Shown here piece after piece: positions 58,065 to 64,000 of a stretch of 64,000 nt of DNA; position 1 is the stretch's first letter, and each line of letters opens with the position of its first letter. The notes beneath the pieces are model-generated. The model saw only the letters and a program-made list of their open reading frames with translations, searched no databases and was not told the origin of the DNA. Origin of the DNA: Paracoccaceae bacterium (lineage in GTDB: Bacteria > Pseudomonadota > Alphaproteobacteria > Rhodobacterales > Rhodobacteraceae); NCBI GenBank assembly GCA_020832655.1, contig JAFIEF010000011.1, forward strand, positions 1 to 64,000, read 5' to 3'. A program made the position numbers and the translations under genes.

Positions 58065-58139
58065 GCCCGGGTAGCTCAGGGGTAGAGCAGTGGATTGAAA
58101 ATCCTCGTGTCGGTGGTTCGATTCCGCCCCCGGGCACCA
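58065..58139 (+). tRNA. tRNA-Phe (anticodon GAA)
   Basis: 75 bases with CCA. The acceptor GCCCGGG pairs with CCCGGGC, the D stem is GCTC/GAGC, the anticodon loop TTGAAAA carries GAA at 58097-58099, and the T arm GGTGG TTCGATT CCGCC is intact. The 3' end borders accessory DNA, so it is a probable integration site. Confidence 0.95.
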
Positions 58140-58266
58140 CTTATATACATGATATGTAGAGATAAATTCACTTCGGCGGATTGCGATTGTTGTGGAACTC
58201 GTGGAGTGGGCAACGTATGGGCAACAGAATCCTCGGGCTTACGTAAATCACGAGCTTGTGATCTCC
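58140..58266. other. Non-coding region at a tRNA-Phe integration border
   Basis: From 58140 the sequence turns AT-richer (TTATATACATGATATGTAGA) and has no gene. It contains GGGCAACGTATGGGCAAC, a direct repeat of GGGCAAC at 11-base spacing, which recalls arm-type integrase sites or a decayed attachment region. No direct repeat of the tRNA 3' end was found at the other end of the window. Confidence 0.4.
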
Positions 58267-58476
58267 TTATTCTGACTCGGGGCCATTTGGCTCCGGTGTC
58301 CGCCCGTTGATGTAAGCGCTGATCTGATCGGCCCGCCAACGCACGCATCCGCGCGAAAGATGCAAAGGCTCGGGGAAGCGAGGATCGCGTTTCTGGATGC
58401 GATACAGGGTGGCGCGCGAAACGCTGAGCAGATCGGCGGTTTCTTTGACGGACATCAGTTTCGGCAAGTTCGGCAT
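58267..58476 (-). CDS. AlpA-family (excisionase-like) DNA-binding protein
   Basis: A 69-residue winged-helix protein: KLMSVKETADLLSVSRATLY is the AlpA/MerR-type helix-turn-helix and RWRADQISAYINGRTP the wing. AlpA proteins control phage P4-like integrase and excise islands. AAAAAGGAGTC precedes the ATG at 58476 (an ATG at 58509 is less likely). It is the first gene after tRNA-Phe, as is usual for integrative elements; it may control the next genes on its strand. Confidence 0.85.
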   Translation of the reverse strand: MPNLPKLMSVKETADLLSVSRATLYRIQKRDPRFPEPLHLSRGCVRWRADQISAYINGRTPEPNGPESE

Positions 58477-58548
58477 GGCAGACTCCTTTTTCTTGTCTGC
58501 TTCTACCACGTCAGAATGAAAACGCGTATCTTGATCGGTCCGCGAAGC

Positions 58549-60756
58549 TCAGATATATGTGCATAACCATGGACTTATGACGATACTCAGCCCGGTAGAA
58601 CGCTCTTCTTCGGAGCGTTCTCCTGTGAGCTTAAAAACGTGCTCAGAACTCAGCGTTGCGCGGTTTTCGATCAGGATCGCGGAGGCCATGGCCTCTGCTC
58701 GAGTCAGGTGACCCTGAGCCTTCTCGCGCAGGCCGGCATCGAAGCGCAGCCGGTCGGCGGCATCACCGGGCGGGCCGACCCACACAGTCCCGCTATCGCC
58801 CAAGCCGTACGACATTTCCAGACCCGTGGCACGCTGGGTGGCCTGCGCGAGGTCACATCCTTCGCGCCCACCCGCGCCACCGCTGGGGCGCCCCAGCACC
58901 AGGCGCTCTGCCGCCCGACCAGCGAGGAAGAACGCGATCTCGGCCTCGATATCGCTGCGACGCAATGCATTCGGCTGAGGGATCATCACAGCATGGCCGC
59001 CGCCGTCATAGATGGTCAGAAGTTTCGGGCGCGCGCGACCTGTCGCATGTGCGACGATGGCGTGCCCGCTTTCATGGACGGCGACAGCCCACGCCATCTC
59101 CGGCGCAATCGGCGGCCGGAGATGTTCAACAGACCGGATCAGATCATCCGGGTGCAGCGCACGCCTCGCGCGGCGCGCCGCGGCGCGCGCCGCCTTGACG
59201 GCCTGCGCCACTTGCGCACCCGAAAGCCCGGTCGCCTTTGCGCAAACCCCAGTAAGATCGGCCTCTCGAAGGTCATCCACCAGATGATAACGAAACGCGG
59301 TCGGCAGCAGGTCAGGCGTCGGATGTTCCATCCTGATCTGATGGTCGAAGCGACCGGGACGGATCAGCGCAGCATCGATTTTGTCCGCGTAATTCGTCGC
59401 GGCGATGACGACGATGCCCTCTCGTCCATCAAAACCATCAAGACATTCAAGCAGCCCCGCAACGATGCTCGCAGTCCACGAAGAACTCTGATCGTGCGGT
59501 CGGTTGCGATCACCAATTGCATCCAGTTCGTCAATGAACACAATCGCAGGGCTCGCTTGCATCGCCTTGTCGAAGAACGCCCGCATTTTCTGCAGCAGAT
59601 CGCTCGACCTCTCGCCTTCAGACTGCCACCTTGACAAGGATGCCGCAAATACGGGAAAGCCTGCATCCCGCGCAAGGAGCTTGGGAAGCTCGGTTTTCCC
59701 GCAGCCCGGAGGGCCCTCCAGCAGCAGGCCACAGGTGACATCAGCCCATTTGATCCGGCCTGCTTGCCAATCACGCAGATCAGCGAGGACTTGTTCAACC
59801 GGTGCGCGGACGTCATCAGATAACGGGAATTCTGCAAGCCCCGGTCCGGTCTTTCGCTGCACTGCCCCAGCCGCAGCCAATCGACCACCCGCAGCCCTTG
59901 GGCTGCCAGCGCGCGCGGCCATCGTCAATCTTGCAGGCGTCAGCGCGGCGATATTGCTATCTTTCAGCGATGCAGGGATATCCGCTGGCTCCACGGTTTG
60001 CCCAGGATAGAGATGCCCGAAGACCACACGCAGCATTTCACGATCCAGATCTGGCAAGATGATTTCTGTATCGACTGAATCCTGGAGAACCGTGGGAAGC
60101 TTCGACGGATTCGGGCCGACCAATATTAACGGACGTCCGTCCTCGATAAGGCTCCAGAAGCCCTCGGACATCCCTGAACGATCGGTACTTTTCGCAGGCC
60201 TTGAGCTATCGAACACTTCTGACACCCTTCTTGCGTCAGGCCGGTGCAATCCGGGGGAAAGCACGGTGTTTGCAAACAAGGCCCGCAGAATTTTCGTCAT
60301 CAGTTCTACCGAGTGATCTGCCGGGCAACGCAAGAATGCGATATGTCCCGGCTGACCAAAGGTATCGGCAAGCGCCTGTGGCGTCGGGAACCGCCTTGCG
60401 ATGCGTGCGACAGCCATCGCGATTTCGGCACGTGGTCGCTGGTGGTGTTCCGGGCACGGGGGCAGAACAGCGCCCATTGTCTTGTCCCAGTCCATCTCGA
60501 TCTCGTCGAGAATCGAGTCCACATCATCATAGTGATGCTCCGGGGCGGCCGGCGCCTTGGGTTTTGCCCGGGTTCCCACCGTTTTCTTGTCAGCCGAAGG
60601 CCGGGTGGCTTTCTTGATAGGGGGCGCTGCCATAGGCGCTCCGTACCAATCAGTATGCGACCAATTCTCATAGGAACTTTCTGAAAGAAGCTGAAGAATT
60701 TGTCCTGCGAAGGAAGGCCATGTCTGGTCGTGGTTCTCAATGTCTGAATGCATCAT
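58549..60756 (-). CDS. Soluble FtsH-like AAA+ ATPase with M41-type metalloprotease domain
   Basis: A 735-residue protein. N-terminal part (1-330) has no recognised domain and no hydrophobic anchor. An AAA+ module follows with Walker A (EGPPGCGKTELPKLLARDA, about 345), Walker B (IVFIDELDAIGDR, about 408) and RPGRFDHQIRMEHP. The C-terminal part has the zinc motif HESGH (about residue 557) and the third-ligand Asp region GCDLAQATQRAT (about 633), as in FtsH. Lack of FtsH's two N-terminal helices makes it cytoplasmic. It heads toward 58549; GGGAG precedes the ATG. It sits with AlpA and a nuclease-like gene in an island, so an accessory, perhaps defensive, role is plausible but unproven. Confidence 0.85.
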   Translation of the reverse strand: MMHSDIENHDQTWPSFAGQILQLLSESSYENWSHTDWYGAPMAAPPIKKATRPSADKKTVGTRAKPKAPAAPEHHYDDVDSILDEIEMDWDKTMGAVLPPCPEHHQRPRAEIAMAVARIARRFPTPQALADTFGQPGHIAFLRCPADHSVELMTKILRALFANTVLSPGLHRPDARRVSEVFDSSRPAKSTDRSGMSEGFWSLIEDGRPLILVGPNPSKLPTVLQDSVDTEIILPDLDREMLRVVFGHLYPGQTVEPADIPASLKDSNIAALTPARLTMAARAGSPRAAGGRLAAAGAVQRKTGPGLAEFPLSDDVRAPVEQVLADLRDWQAGRIKWADVTCGLLLEGPPGCGKTELPKLLARDAGFPVFAASLSRWQSEGERSSDLLQKMRAFFDKAMQASPAIVFIDELDAIGDRNRPHDQSSSWTASIVAGLLECLDGFDGREGIVVIAATNYADKIDAALIRPGRFDHQIRMEHPTPDLLPTAFRYHLVDDLREADLTGVCAKATGLSGAQVAQAVKAARAAARRARRALHPDDLIRSVEHLRPPIAPEMAWAVAVHESGHAIVAHATGRARPKLLTIYDGGGHAVMIPQPNALRRSDIEAEIAFFLAGRAAERLVLGRPSGGAGGREGCDLAQATQRATGLEMSYGLGDSGTVWVGPPGDAADRLRFDAGLREKAQGHLTRAEAMASAILIENRATLSSEHVFKLTGERSEEERSTGLSIVISPWLCTYI

Positions 60757-60812
60757 TGCATACTCCCGTTAGATGGGTTCGATGGCCGATTGGTGATTTG
60801 GGGGGTGGAGGG

Positions 60813-61820
60813 TCAGGACGATATGCGCGCTTGCGCTTCGATCTGGTCCATCAATTTGTTGATTTCTGGCAACAGCGCCGGGGCGTAGATCTCGGAGACA
60901 ACGTTGATATGGTTTCCATAGATATCCACGGGCACAACATGGCCCGGGAACCGCCGCACAAGGTCAGCATTTGCGCGCTTCTCGGCGGCACAAGCCGCAT
61001 GGCCGGTAGGCATCTGTAAAAGCCGCAAGAAAGTGACCTTCGCGGCCTTCGACAGCCCAAGCTGGTGCCGAAACCTGCGTTTCGGATTCGCGCTGTATCC
61101 GAACTTGACCACATCAAGCCCCTCAGAGGCGAGCCGAATTCGCGCGAGATAAATCACCGAGGGCTTTGATGACCAACTCTCACCACAGTTCGCGCAGTCG
61201 CACTGCCCGTTACGCATATTAACGCGCGCGATCCTTTGAAAGTGACCGCAGCGATGCCGGTACATGCGATAATTCGCCTTGGCTTCGGGGTCCGGGCCAA
61301 CCCGCTCCCATCCATGCGCGCGCGCCTCGGCTTGTTCGCGTTCGATCAGGCACATCCGGCATTTCACATTGACCTCGCCCTTCTCGACCCGTTTGATGAA
61401 CCCGAATTGACGCCGCACTTCATGCCCGCATGGCGCATGGAAGAAAGCGTATTTGTGATAACTATGATCACGCCGCAGAAACGTAAGCTTCGCCCCGTCG
61501 GCGCTATGGCGTTGCCTGGTTGTGGCGCAGCCACCACAGCGCGGCTGAGCCCCCCGCAAGGCGGACAGTTTCACTGCCGTATGTGCGCCACATGCCTTGC
61601 ATTCGAGCTTCAGGTGAAAGCGATCACGGATACGGCTAACAATGCGGAAGCCCTTTTGATGCGCCATGCCGTGCCACTCTGGGACGGTGGGGCCGTCAAA
61701 ATGGGACCATGCGCAGGCGGGAACATGGCGCGAACGGTGTGGGACCCAAAGACGTTTCTGCTGCGGGTTGACAGTGATCGGGTGAAGGAGGCTGTCCGAG
61801 GATTTGAAACGGTCGGGCAT
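60813..61820 (-). CDS. Zinc-ribbon protein with C-terminal GIY-YIG-like domain
   Basis: A 335-residue protein with three zinc-ribbon-like units: CKACGAH and CGGC, APCGHE and CRMC, HRCGHF and CDCANC. The C-terminal 115 residues (about 220-335) begin with VIYLARIRLASEGLDVVKFG and YSANPKRRFRHQLGLS, the layout of the GIY-YIG-like/T5orf172 domain, with Arg and a Glu (AAEKRANADLVRRFPG) as in nuclease cores. It could bind and cut DNA or RNA. It is 57 bases from the AAA+ gene on the same strand, so the two may be co-transcribed. The domain call is from pattern recognition only. Confidence 0.75.
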   Translation of the reverse strand: MPDRFKSSDSLLHPITVNPQQKRLWVPHRSRHVPACAWSHFDGPTVPEWHGMAHQKGFRIVSRIRDRFHLKLECKACGAHTAVKLSALRGAQPRCGGCATTRQRHSADGAKLTFLRRDHSYHKYAFFHAPCGHEVRRQFGFIKRVEKGEVNVKCRMCLIEREQAEARAHGWERVGPDPEAKANYRMYRHRCGHFQRIARVNMRNGQCDCANCGESWSSKPSVIYLARIRLASEGLDVVKFGYSANPKRRFRHQLGLSKAAKVTFLRLLQMPTGHAACAAEKRANADLVRRFPGHVVPVDIYGNHINVVSEIYAPALLPEINKLMDQIEAQARISS

Positions 61821-61883
61821 GGTGGCACCTGTAGCGCAAGGGGAATCAAGAGCGTTGGAAATACCGGGGGCAATCCAAGAGGA

Positions 61884-62393
61884 TCACGATGCCGGCGATG
61901 CGCCGCCCGGCCTGTGGCAGGCGGCGGCATCAGCGCTGACGTCAAACATGCCGTCATCCAGCGCGGCATAGCTTTCAAACAGGCCTAATCCCTGCAAAAT
62001 CATCTGGTTCAGCCGGAAATTCACCGGGTCACCCCAAGGCAGCAGGAAAACCTCTGTCTGCCGGGCACGATGCTGCAGATATGCCATCTGATCGGGCTCG
62101 CTGCTATTCATCGCGAACAGGAACAGCCGCGCGACCGTCTGCATGCGCAAATCTGCTTCGGTCTGGGCGGGCAGCGACATCACATTTGCAGCCTCTCCAA
62201 GCGCTGCCGCATAAGCGTGCTCGGCATCGCGGATCCAGACATCCACTGCCGGGTCCTGACCAGAGTAGCCTGCCAGATCCCGTTCTGCATCGACCAACGT
62301 ATTGACGATAGAGAGAAACGCAGAGAACCGGATGGCGATCGGAGTACGCAAACTGGACATATAGTAAGGCTTCGAGGGAGACGGATTCGACAT
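61884..62393 (-). CDS. Hypothetical protein of the island
   Basis: A 169-residue protein, mostly helical, with no cysteine pair, membrane segment or known motif. AAAAAGGATACTATC lies before the ATG at 62393, a strong ribosome site. It ends 64 bases before the zinc-ribbon gene on the same strand. Upstream is an AT-rich gap with an inverted repeat, then a divergent marR gene. Function unknown. Confidence 0.65.
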   Translation of the reverse strand: MSNPSPSKPYYMSSLRTPIAIRFSAFLSIVNTLVDAERDLAGYSGQDPAVDVWIRDAEHAYAAALGEAANVMSLPAQTEADLRMQTVARLFLFAMNSSEPDQMAYLQHRARQTEVFLLPWGDPVNFRLNQMILQGLGLFESYAALDDGMFDVSADAAACHRPGGASPAS

Positions 62394-62464
62394 GATAGTA
62401 TCCTTTTTCGTGAGGGCCGCTTGAGCTTGAAACCCGATAGCTAGCCGTGTAGGTAAAATTGAAA

Positions 62465-62500
62465 TAGATTGATATTTGCTACACGTCAAGCATCAATCTA
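62465..62500. promoter_or_regulatory. Inverted repeat between divergent island genes
   Basis: TAGATTGAT (62465-62473) and ATCAATCTA (62492-62500) are perfect 9-base arms with an 18-base spacer; inside them TGCT (62477) and AGCA (62489) extend the pairing. The gap is AT-rich, unlike its surroundings. It could be the operator of the MarR regulator or of the island operon. Confidence 0.5.
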
Positions 62501-62626
62501 ATATTTTTTCTGGAGAGGTCGATTTTTGCCAGAGCAGTTCACATCTTGAGCTAGGATGAGTAGACGTGTAGCTTTCTGCGGGGTAACTACTTGCAAAGAT
62601 CCCACCGCACCCCCCGAGGCATCAAG

Positions 62627-63046
62627 ATGACAGACTTCCCAGACCTGCGCGTGATAGACCCGCTGAACTCCGCTGCACGCGCGGTCAATCGTGCCCTTAC
62701 CGAAGCCCTACGCCCTTATGGGCTCAGCTTTGCCCAGTTTTGCATGATCGACCTGATCGACAGAGGCGGCCCGCATTACCCATCCAGCCTTGCGCGCAAA
62801 CTGGATATCGAGACCAGCACCATGGCCTCAACGCTGAAGCGTGCCGAGAATGCTGGCTTCATCATCCGCTCACCCGACCCGAACGACGCCCGTGGCGTCG
62901 TCGTTACCCTGACCGATCACTCCCGGCAGATATTGTCCGATGCCAGGGCTGCAGTGTTGGTGATTGAGGCGAAATGTGCAGATGGCCTCTCCGGAGAAGA
63001 GCGGGAAGGCGGGATAGGGTTTTTGAAGAAGATCTGGCGAAGTTGA
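62627..63046 (+). CDS. MarR-family transcription regulator
   Basis: A 139-residue winged-helix repressor. Recognition helix in YPSSLARKLDIETSTMASTL, wing RSPDPNDARGVVVTLTDHSR. MarR proteins usually bind small phenolic or oxidised ligands and repress a divergent operon, here the island genes. The start at 62627 is preferred; a frame from 62591 adds unconserved residues. Divergent from the hypothetical gene across the inverted repeat. Confidence 0.85.
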   Translation: MTDFPDLRVIDPLNSAARAVNRALTEALRPYGLSFAQFCMIDLIDRGGPHYPSSLARKLDIETSTMASTLKRAENAGFIIRSPDPNDARGVVVTLTDHSRQILSDARAAVLVIEAKCADGLSGEEREGGIGFLKKIWRS

Positions 63047-63322
63047 CAAACACGCAGGTCAGGTTTTGAACACATCTGAAAAACGTGGGGGATCAACCTT
63101 CCCCTTGGGTGTTGAGCCGAGTCGGGATCCGTCTCTGGTACCGCAAGAGTGGGGCATACGGGACTTTCTGCCGGTCGCGCACTCCACCTTGTGACCCCTT
63201 GCCGATTCGGCATGAACGACGTGGAGGGCGGATTGCGGCCTGTGAACTTGCAGCAATGCAGCTGCAAAGTTTTGTCAAAGCTGCCGGTTGGCCCGTCGTG
63301 CAGGCTTCACAACTGAGGCTAC
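63047..63322. other. No gene seen
   Basis: A stretch of 276 bases with no supportable open frame on either strand; the frames present are shadows of the marR gene or short. Together with 63323-63722 this makes a 676-base region between marR and the PEP-synthase-like gene that holds no confident gene. Confidence 0.5.
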
Positions 63323-63700
63323 TCACGCTCCGGAGTATTTGATGCCAGCGCGCTTTGCAACCTGCGACACGCTAACAGCATCAAACCCCTCCGCGCGGGC
63401 CATATCCGGCAACACCGACCGATTCGCCCGGAGAGTGGGCACAACGCGGGGATCAATCGCGATGCCGTTAGATTTTGCCGACGGAATGCCGGTATCTGTC
63501 GGGTTTCCAGCATCCGGGAGCGATGTGACTTTTGTCTGGTCCATATCGATAGAACAGGGGTTTCGCAGCAATCGGTCGAGCCGCGACACGCATTTGAGGC
63601 AGGTCAAGGCAATGGTTTGGGGTTTGTGCAAGGGTGCCATATCTCGAGGATCGACCGATGTTTCCGGTATGCAGGCCCCGCTCCGCTTTGCCTGTCCCAT
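63323..63700 (-). pseudogene. Possible remnant of a regulator
   Basis: An open frame of 125 codons whose last part reads ARAEGFDAVSVSQVAKRAGI, like the helix-turn-helix of TetR-type or transposase-type DNA-binding proteins, but it ends right after and the N-terminal text is not conserved-looking. No clear ribosome site. It may be a decayed gene or chance. Low confidence. Confidence 0.25.
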
Positions 63701-63722
63701 ATTTGATCTGGAGGTTCATGAT

Positions 63723-64000
63723 ATGGCTATTTCGCCGACCGATCTGACTGCAAACCTGAGCGCCATCGGCAGCGCCGATCTTGCACTAGCGGGCGGTAAG
63801 GGCGCGAGCCTTGGCGCGATGCTGGGGGCCGGATTGCCCGTGCCCGAGGGCTTTGCGGTGCTGACGCAGGCCTATCGCGACTTCGTGGCGCACAACGGGT
63901 TTGACGAGCCGGTGCGGCATTTGGTCGAGGATGTGCCCGCCGATGACCCCGAAGCCCTGGCAAAGGCCGCGCAGGCGCTGAAAGACCGGTTTCTGGTGGG
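63723..64000 (+). CDS. PEP synthase/PPDK-like ATP-grasp protein, 5' fragment
   Basis: An open frame from ATG 63723 runs past the end of the window (92 codons visible). The text LAGGKGASLGAMLGAGLPVP followed by EGFAVLTQAYRDF is the N-terminal ATP-grasp start of PEP/pyruvate-binding proteins such as PEP synthase (PpsA), pyruvate phosphate dikinase or rifampin phosphotransferase. GGAGGTTCATGAT lies before the ATG. Which of these it is cannot be told from the fragment. Confidence 0.85.
   Translation, partial: MAISPTDLTANLSAIGSADLALAGGKGASLGAMLGAGLPVPEGFAVLTQAYRDFVAHNGFDEPVRHLVEDVPADDPEALAKAAQALKDRFLV

Follow-up and report, generated by a model that had tools for sequence, protein, structure and literature searches.

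What are the genes beside a tRNA-Phe gene in a Paracoccaceae bacterium, and do they form a system of their own? They lie near the right end of the 64,000-nucleotide stretch analysed here (positions 1 to 64,000 of contig JAFIEF010000011.1; hereafter the window), where a first-pass annotation had described an AlpA-like regulator, an AAA+ metalloprotease, a zinc-ribbon protein resembling GIY-YIG nucleases, an unassigned protein and a divergent MarR regulator. Gene calls and Pfam searches bore out this row, and with it the description of an accessory locus at a tRNA hotspot in which a nuclease and an AAA+ protease share one operon. All of these genes except that for AlpA belong to a cassette that is conserved in relatives, has been transferred between elements, has swapped its nuclease and keeps its catalytic residues. 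We consider the chances about even that this mobile cassette, carried on islands, defends against DNA that enters from phages, plasmids or rival elements, and that the protease would gate an exchangeable nuclease.

Conservation of the cassette

Relatives were collected by a protein search over 147 genomes, by plasmid searches and from eight annotated plasmid regions, and then with two nuclease profiles run over 390 Rhodobacterales genomes. Some of the loci behind the seed nuclease profiles had originally been located by way of the protease, and genes in the relatives' loci were called with our own script. The cassette consists, in order, of a divergent repressor of the MarR or ribbon-helix-helix (RHH) type, a small helical protein, a nuclease and an AAA+/M41 protease. 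Its nuclease is of the zinc-ribbon/GIY-YIG type, as in the window, or of the PD-(D/E)XK type, and these were matched in 53 and 23 of the 390 genomes, respectively (E ≤ 0.001, some fragments included). The spread is patchy, and some genomes hold several copies. Each of the eight plasmid regions carries a regulator, a small protein and a nuclease, followed directly by the protease in five (L061-L065).

The first-pass annotation had proposed looking for the protease and zinc-ribbon genes together in other genomes, and they were indeed found side by side; a lack of such pairs, which it had named as refuting its reading, is clearly contradicted. We analysed the neighbourhoods of 40 of the 72 listed zinc-ribbon places and 20 of the 28 PD-(D/E)XK places, taken by rank, with one place per genome for the zinc-ribbon type and mostly so for the other. 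In these loci, picked by the nuclease profile alone, the protease lay no more than 400 bp downstream of the nuclease in 36 of 40 and 18 of 20 cases (split frames L207 and L208 are counted in the former and fragment L232 in the latter), which rules out chance neighbours. Of the six loci without a protease, L187, L188 and L227 lie at contig ends, and L200, L206 and L235 do not. The helical protein was found upstream of the nuclease in 30 of 40 zinc-ribbon and 17 of 20 PD-(D/E)XK loci, and was not recognised in the other 10 and 3; a divergent regulator was present in 34 of 40 and 11 of 20.

In the window, four minus-strand genes point towards tRNA-Phe in the order helical protein, zinc-ribbon/GIY-YIG-like protein, AAA+/M41 protease and AlpA-like protein, with intergenic gaps of 56-72 bp, and the MarR gene diverges from them on the plus strand (Table 1). 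Pfam scores exceeded their cut-offs for AlpA (25.7 against 21 bits), AAA (101.1 against 21.2), M41 (47.7 against 29.9) and MarR (43.3 against 24.6); the zinc-ribbon protein gave chance-level Pfam matches only, and the small helical protein gave none. Start codons were corrected by reading to ATG 62393 for the helical protein, ATG 62627 for MarR and ATG 58476 for AlpA, the first because M33 of the helical protein is invariant in the relatives' alignment. A 125-residue frame at 63323-63700, with only a sub-cut-off TetR_N match and no relative among the loci compared, is probably not a gene. The cassette DNA is 71% identical to that of Roseicyclus mahoneyensis over 4355 bp. The ratio of nonsynonymous to synonymous substitution (dN/dS) of the window's cassette genes against relatives was 0.06-0.20, a rough estimate since dS was 0.7-2.7. 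The genes are real and full length and, by their sequences, look functional.

Table 1. Features at the tRNA-Phe locus, in window coordinates
Feature	Position	Strand	Basis or remark
tRNA-Phe (GAA)	58065-58139	+	tRNA call; likely attachment site
tRNA-Phe/AlpA spacer	58140-58266		common to other tRNA-Phe copies
AlpA/excisionase-like helix-turn-helix protein	58267-58476	-	PF05930; assigned to integration side
Soluble AAA+ ATPase fused to M41 zinc protease	58549-60756	-	PF00004, PF01434
Zinc-ribbon (treble-clef-like) repeats and GIY-YIG-like nuclease domain	60813-61820	-	invariant residues in relatives
Small protein, all-helical by low-confidence prediction	61884-62393	-	alignment of 21 relatives
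Divergent control region with inverted motif copies and promoter-like pair	62394-62626		motif count; promoter by eye
MarR-family regulator	62627-63046	+	PF01047; its stop codon is the cassette border

To the right of the cassette, a gene resembling phosphoenolpyruvate synthase or pyruvate phosphate dikinase (63724-64000 and beyond) is accessory, with matches of at least 83% in 6 of 37 genomes of the genus, the window's own genome and one fragment being counted. The same genome carries both nuclease types, on separate contigs: a second cassette, of the PD-(D/E)XK type, lies with a tyrosine integrase beside tRNA-Ser (L050, G000:C75:18000-37999), and its protease is 28% identical to that of the window. 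A third copy of the helical-protein gene (L254:7002-7520, G000:C34) has no nuclease or protease nearby by profile, and a further GIY-YIG gene (MUG113/T5orf172) lies within a 588-residue open frame (L245, G000:C54).

Movement between integration sites

The locus of genome G036 (L033) has a tRNA-Met and a large serine recombinase, and that of Roseicyclus mahoneyensis DSM 16097 (L175) has a tRNA-Phe and AlpA; the two share one block of 4503 bp that is 96.0% identical. Its borders are the MarR stop codon, to within 11 bp, and a point 79-100 bp short of the protease stop; outside of the block no stretch of the two loci aligned at E 1e-10. Because the block spans the cassette almost exactly between loci with unrelated flanks, the alignments indicate that the cassette moves as a unit that is separable from the integration part. 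Homology of the window with both loci starts at the MarR stop codon or no more than ~20 bp from it. L033 and L035 share a recombinase/tRNA-Met block of 2262 bp that is 96.2% identical, yet they carry different cassettes.

By the same comparison, AlpA goes with the tRNA-Phe integration side. The AlpA/tRNA block of the window, spacer included, is 86% identical to that of G001 (L032) and 74.5% to that of R. mahoneyensis, and the AlpA protein matched the excisionase family phrog_66 at 7.6e-11. Protease, AlpA and tRNA-Phe follow one another in this order also in L032, L189, L191, L194 and, with ~2.3 kb inserted, L175. We had considered AlpA as a cassette member and rejected this, as 0 of 29 serine-recombinase loci have AlpA and the block borders exclude it. 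An rng-like gene upstream of tRNA-Phe is conserved in relatives; the region after tRNA-Phe is variable throughout the genus, with most of the 18 relatives' regions differing and five sharing the first tens of bases. A frame between the protease and AlpA of R. mahoneyensis (L175:12062-13394) resembles a reverse transcriptase by eye.

These sites also bring in the main rival explanation, in which the cassette is an element-maintenance module whose protease and nuclease control excision, replication or mobilisation, or exclude a sister element at the same tRNA. Metalloproteases act on some repressors of integrative and conjugative elements, which offers a parallel. The tRNA-Met type of serine recombinase is present in 29 loci, and in all 15 in which tRNA-Met was also called (L033, L035, L039, L042, L053, L065, L186, L195, L200, L209, L213, L214, L221, L222, L225) the recombinase frame stops exactly 44 nt into the tRNA gene, a precise and recurrent integration signature; of the remaining loci, 13 gave no tRNA-Met, some because the contig breaks off at the recombinase, and L064 was outside the tRNA scan. 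A serine recombinase lies no more than 6 kb downstream in 11 of 40 zinc-ribbon and 7 of 20 PD-(D/E)XK loci. Relaxase, NikA-like or DUF927 genes occur near some copies (L212, L220, L225) and point to cassette copies on integrative mobilisable elements; in L212, at tRNA-Phe, relaxase, NikA-like gene, AlpA, cassette and tyrosine integrase stand in a row, with the NikA-like and relaxase genes between AlpA and the tRNA. However, cassettes that are 96% identical in DNA are joined to unlike integration parts, recombinase blocks that hardly differ carry different cassettes, and such ready separation would not be expected of a core transfer function. Moreover, 29 of 40 and 12 of 20 loci have no recombinase of the profiled types within 6 kb downstream, although the profiles may miss others. 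We therefore think it unlikely, if the strongest of the competing explanations, that the cassette serves the element rather than defending against incoming DNA.

At the window locus, the first-pass annotation had seen no integrase, and profiles of the two recombinase types known from relatives gave no match between 56000 and 69564, where the contig ends (L031); no convincing attachment-site repeat of the tRNA-Phe end was found in L031. The integration part would thus be lost or elsewhere, with the cassette itself looking functional. The suggestion that the island is decayed accordingly fits its missing integration part but not the cassette genes, which are full length, keep their catalytic residues and have the dN/dS given above.

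Exchange of the nuclease and the remaining components

Of the 99 loci with any match, 56 have the zinc-ribbon/GIY-YIG nuclease, 34 the PD-(D/E)XK nuclease and none both. A tree was built of the 73 protease domains whose nuclease is known (45 zinc-ribbon and 28 PD-(D/E)XK, duplicate loci L176 and L178 excluded). Along this tree the nuclease switches type 11 times, where bootstrap trees gave 10-12 switches and shuffling a mean of 22; at least 8 of the changes are forced by well-supported (starred) branches alone. A wider tree of 85 rows, which includes rows without a nuclease label and likewise omits the two duplicates, gave 12 changes, and both types occur within each of seven genera. These repeated changes on the protease tree indicate an exchangeable nuclease slot. 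Defence systems are well known to swap effectors in this way.

Among 14 relatives of the zinc-ribbon nuclease, the Cys/His pairs, Y224, K239, G241, S243, R249 and E280 are invariant (14/14), and the Y, KxG, R and E residues of the GIY-YIG type (Y224, K239, G241, R249, E280) are all kept. At E ≤ 0.05, four of these relatives matched T5orf172 (best 1.6e-4) and two MUG113, both of which we take to be GIY-YIG families, and some matched DUF4379. NCBI gives four of the eight annotated plasmid copies the name GIY-YIG nuclease family protein and calls the other four hypothetical. As a test of GIY-YIG membership, hhalign aligned the expected columns at E 0.0021 but with a probability of 13.6%, and the structure model of the protein is poor, with a mean predicted local distance difference test (pLDDT) score of 43.0 from two sequences. 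Two further ideas on this nuclease were rejected: a phage origin, with 2 distant phage records only and none in viral contigs for a single-protein query, and spread beyond the order, with 1 of 385 genomes in a class-wide draw, the window's own.

The second slot type, absent from the window locus, has E71, D95, Q108 and K110 (the E, D, QxK motif of PD-(D/E)XK) in 14 of 14 members, and PDDEXK_5 matched 11 of the 14 at E ≤ 0.01 (best 6.5e-7), the first member being below the Pfam cut-off. At one locus (L256), another protein lies between the helical protein and the protease; it matched CoiA_nuc at E=0.036, below the cut-off, and did not match DUF6035, and it is possibly a third, CoiA-like occupant of the slot.

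The profile of the PD-(D/E)XK type also matched PDB 2ost (E=5e-4), presumably the homing enzyme I-Ssp6803I, and GIY-YIG is a homing nuclease fold as well. Together with the PDDEXK_5 matches, the sharp cassette borders and the exchange in place, this would suit a homing-like cassette, in which the nuclease cuts relatives that lack the cassette or are differently occupied, repair copies the cassette in, and the protease limits the nuclease. We regard such homing as improbable, given that cassettes are found at tRNA-Met, tRNA-Phe and tRNA-Ser sites and on plasmids and that, to our knowledge, homing genes rarely carry a repressor, a helical partner and a protease.

In a defence cassette, the AAA+/M41 ring would act as the conserved, ATP-driven gate. 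All 76 full-length protease relatives keep the Walker A Lys, the Walker B Asp-Glu and the two Arg fingers; HExxH is kept by 74 of them and D635, the third zinc ligand, by 75. The window protease has the zinc motif HESGH. Its N-terminal ~300 residues match no assigned domain. No typical membrane-anchor stretch was found in it (maximum Kyte-Doolittle hydropathy 1.18 over 19 residues, and 1.05 before the AAA part), and 21 of the 76 relatives exceed 1.6, so that the family is mixed for a membrane anchor by this crude measure.

The helical protein, with M33 invariant across the 21 aligned relatives, is encoded upstream of either nuclease type; its structure model has a mean pLDDT of 50.1 (two sequences). 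A different small family (cluster 15) fills its slot in six loci, and a further small family (cluster 11) occupies the regulator position in eight. At seven places the helical protein adjoins no known nuclease: L256 has a protease, L254, L257, L258 and L259 have neither by profile, and in L255 and L260 the sequence ends too close to judge. An obligatory MarR was ruled out, MarR being present in 9 and RHH in 56 of the 99 loci. In the control region, two inverted CTACACGT/ACGTGTAG copies at 62479 and 62564, an 8-mer that occurs nowhere else in the window, have counterparts at the same places in L033 and L175, and one overlaps a promoter-like TTGACG-17-TATTTC that faces the operon (read by eye). 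No operator common to the two MarR cassette types was found.

Plasmid carriage, a small partner beside the nuclease in 47 of 60 loci and a divergent repressor whose motif covers the promoter of the operon would suit an addiction module. In such a module the nuclease would be the toxin and the helical protein the antitoxin; after loss or under stress the protease would degrade the antitoxin, and the island would thereby be retained. We give this the lowest probability of the explanations considered, as MarR/PD-(D/E)XK/protease copies exist without a recognised helical protein (L034, L035, L036) and nucleases exist without a protease.

Proposed function and relation to known systems

We favour defence against incoming DNA because of the patchy spread, the effector-like swapping, the mobility and some striking neighbourhoods. 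In such a cassette, the divergent MarR or RHH repressor would hold down the operon, in the window probably by way of the inverted motif that overlaps its promoter. The nuclease would be the effector, zinc-ribbon/GIY-YIG here and PD-(D/E)XK elsewhere. The protease ring would recognise an invasion cue or partner, unfold or degrade that protein and thereby license the nuclease, with the small helical protein probably serving as an adaptor or inhibitor between the two. An AAA+ protease that curbs a restriction nuclease is known, namely ClpXP with HsdR, and by this analogy the protease might instead be a safety device that restrains the nuclease. The bolder claim would be that of a new class of immunity built on a soluble M41 protease-ATPase that licenses whichever nuclease fills the slot (GIY-YIG and PD-(D/E)XK swapped at least 8 times), with the cassette traded as a unit between tRNA-Met and tRNA-Phe islands; we put this forward tentatively, as clearly less likely than a defence role as such.

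The first-pass annotation had likened the operon to defence or stress systems, and the neighbourhoods uphold this for some copies only. At the same tRNA-Phe in R. mahoneyensis, the genes upstream of MarR include those for DrmA and DrmB (DISARM), Vsr, and a methyltransferase and a restriction enzyme, both of Type II; a Type IIG restriction enzyme lies beside the G036 cassette, and Dsr1 and a type IV match near that of Rhodobacter sp. CZR27.

Several observations weigh against a defence role. The eight DISARM, restriction and Dsr1-like neighbour proteins were chosen by eye for their defence-gene look. In the wider sample, 128 upstream neighbours from 70 loci matched 159 PADLOC models at E ≤ 1e-15, against 36 for 128 controls (96 proteins from relatives' tRNA-Phe regions and 32 from the window), but these figures count overlapping models, many for one methyltransferase, and not proteins, so that the enrichment is weak. 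When 10 large neighbours of the 128 were scanned singly at the same threshold, 1 matched (a methyltransferase) and 9 did not. Full-length nucleases without a protease in five loci (L066, L067, L068, L200, L206) imply that the protease is not strictly needed, and in several loci (L041, L049, L058, L059, L207, L208, L232) the protease gene is split or only a fragment. The window protein is assigned to GIY-YIG by its motifs and its relatives, dN/dS is higher, at 0.19-0.51, between the closest pair (L033/L175), and the relaxase, NikA-like and DUF927 neighbours fit element biology equally.

If the cassette is for defence, FtsH-like proteolytic gating would join the known ways of switching on DNA-cutting effectors, and the natural nuclease swaps would be ready-made chimeras for probing recognition by the gate. 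Even without a defence role, it is a widespread Rhodobacterales island cassette whose members are annotated only piecemeal.

Relatives of the protease were also found on Hyphomicrobiales plasmids. In Rhizobium, Bosea and Methylorubrum, a related AAA/M41 gene stands beside another predicted hydrolase, a metallophosphoesterase (L236, L237, L238), with DUF6634 in L237 and L238 and a TIR protein near L238; the operon annotation includes neither nuclease type, and the product name is only 'AAA family ATPase'. These loci are a possible sister system. The Rhizobium copy (L236) is near a KwaB-like gene and an S8 peptidase/ATP-binding pair that we take to be IetAS-like.

PADLOC, NCBIfam, PHROGs and Pfam name single parts and never this cassette. 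No such operon was found in the literature searched, which included the consulted parts of PMC7159879, PMC13092281 and PMC13190303 and did not cover most subscription papers, preprints outside PubMed Central or supplements. The FtsH-containing MoxR-vWA ternary conflict systems, as far as the consulted parts of their description go, likewise place an FtsH-type ATPase in a conflict operon, but consist of MoxR, vWA proteins and a double ATPase module, all of which the window cassette lacks (PMC7159879). SNIPE also uses a GIY-YIG nuclease as an anti-phage effector, but is one membrane protein with DUF4041, and the consulted parts of its description mention no protease partner (PMC13190303). The match to the mad1 model of MADS was 18.4 bits against a cut-off of 80.

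The protease shares AAA+ and M41 domains, HExxH and the third Asp ligand with FtsH. A duplicate of the housekeeping enzyme was nevertheless ruled out: the window protease scored 175.3 bits against the FtsH (TIGR01241) cut-off of 600 and is ~31-37% identical to relatives' FtsH-like proteins over the catalytic part. It also differs from FtsH in its own N-terminal region, an accessory and patchy distribution and, in the window copy, the lack of a visible anchor. The ATPase-protease logic is that of IetAS, a defence system of an AAA ATPase and an S8 protease, which gave the best PADLOC match of the window's AAA part (77.9 bits). However, the window protease reached 79 bits against the NF042959 cut-off of 510, and no adjacent S8 protease IetS was found among the five window proteins scanned. 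In the window, an M41 protease is fused to the ATPase in one chain in place of a separate S8 enzyme, and its partner is a nuclease.

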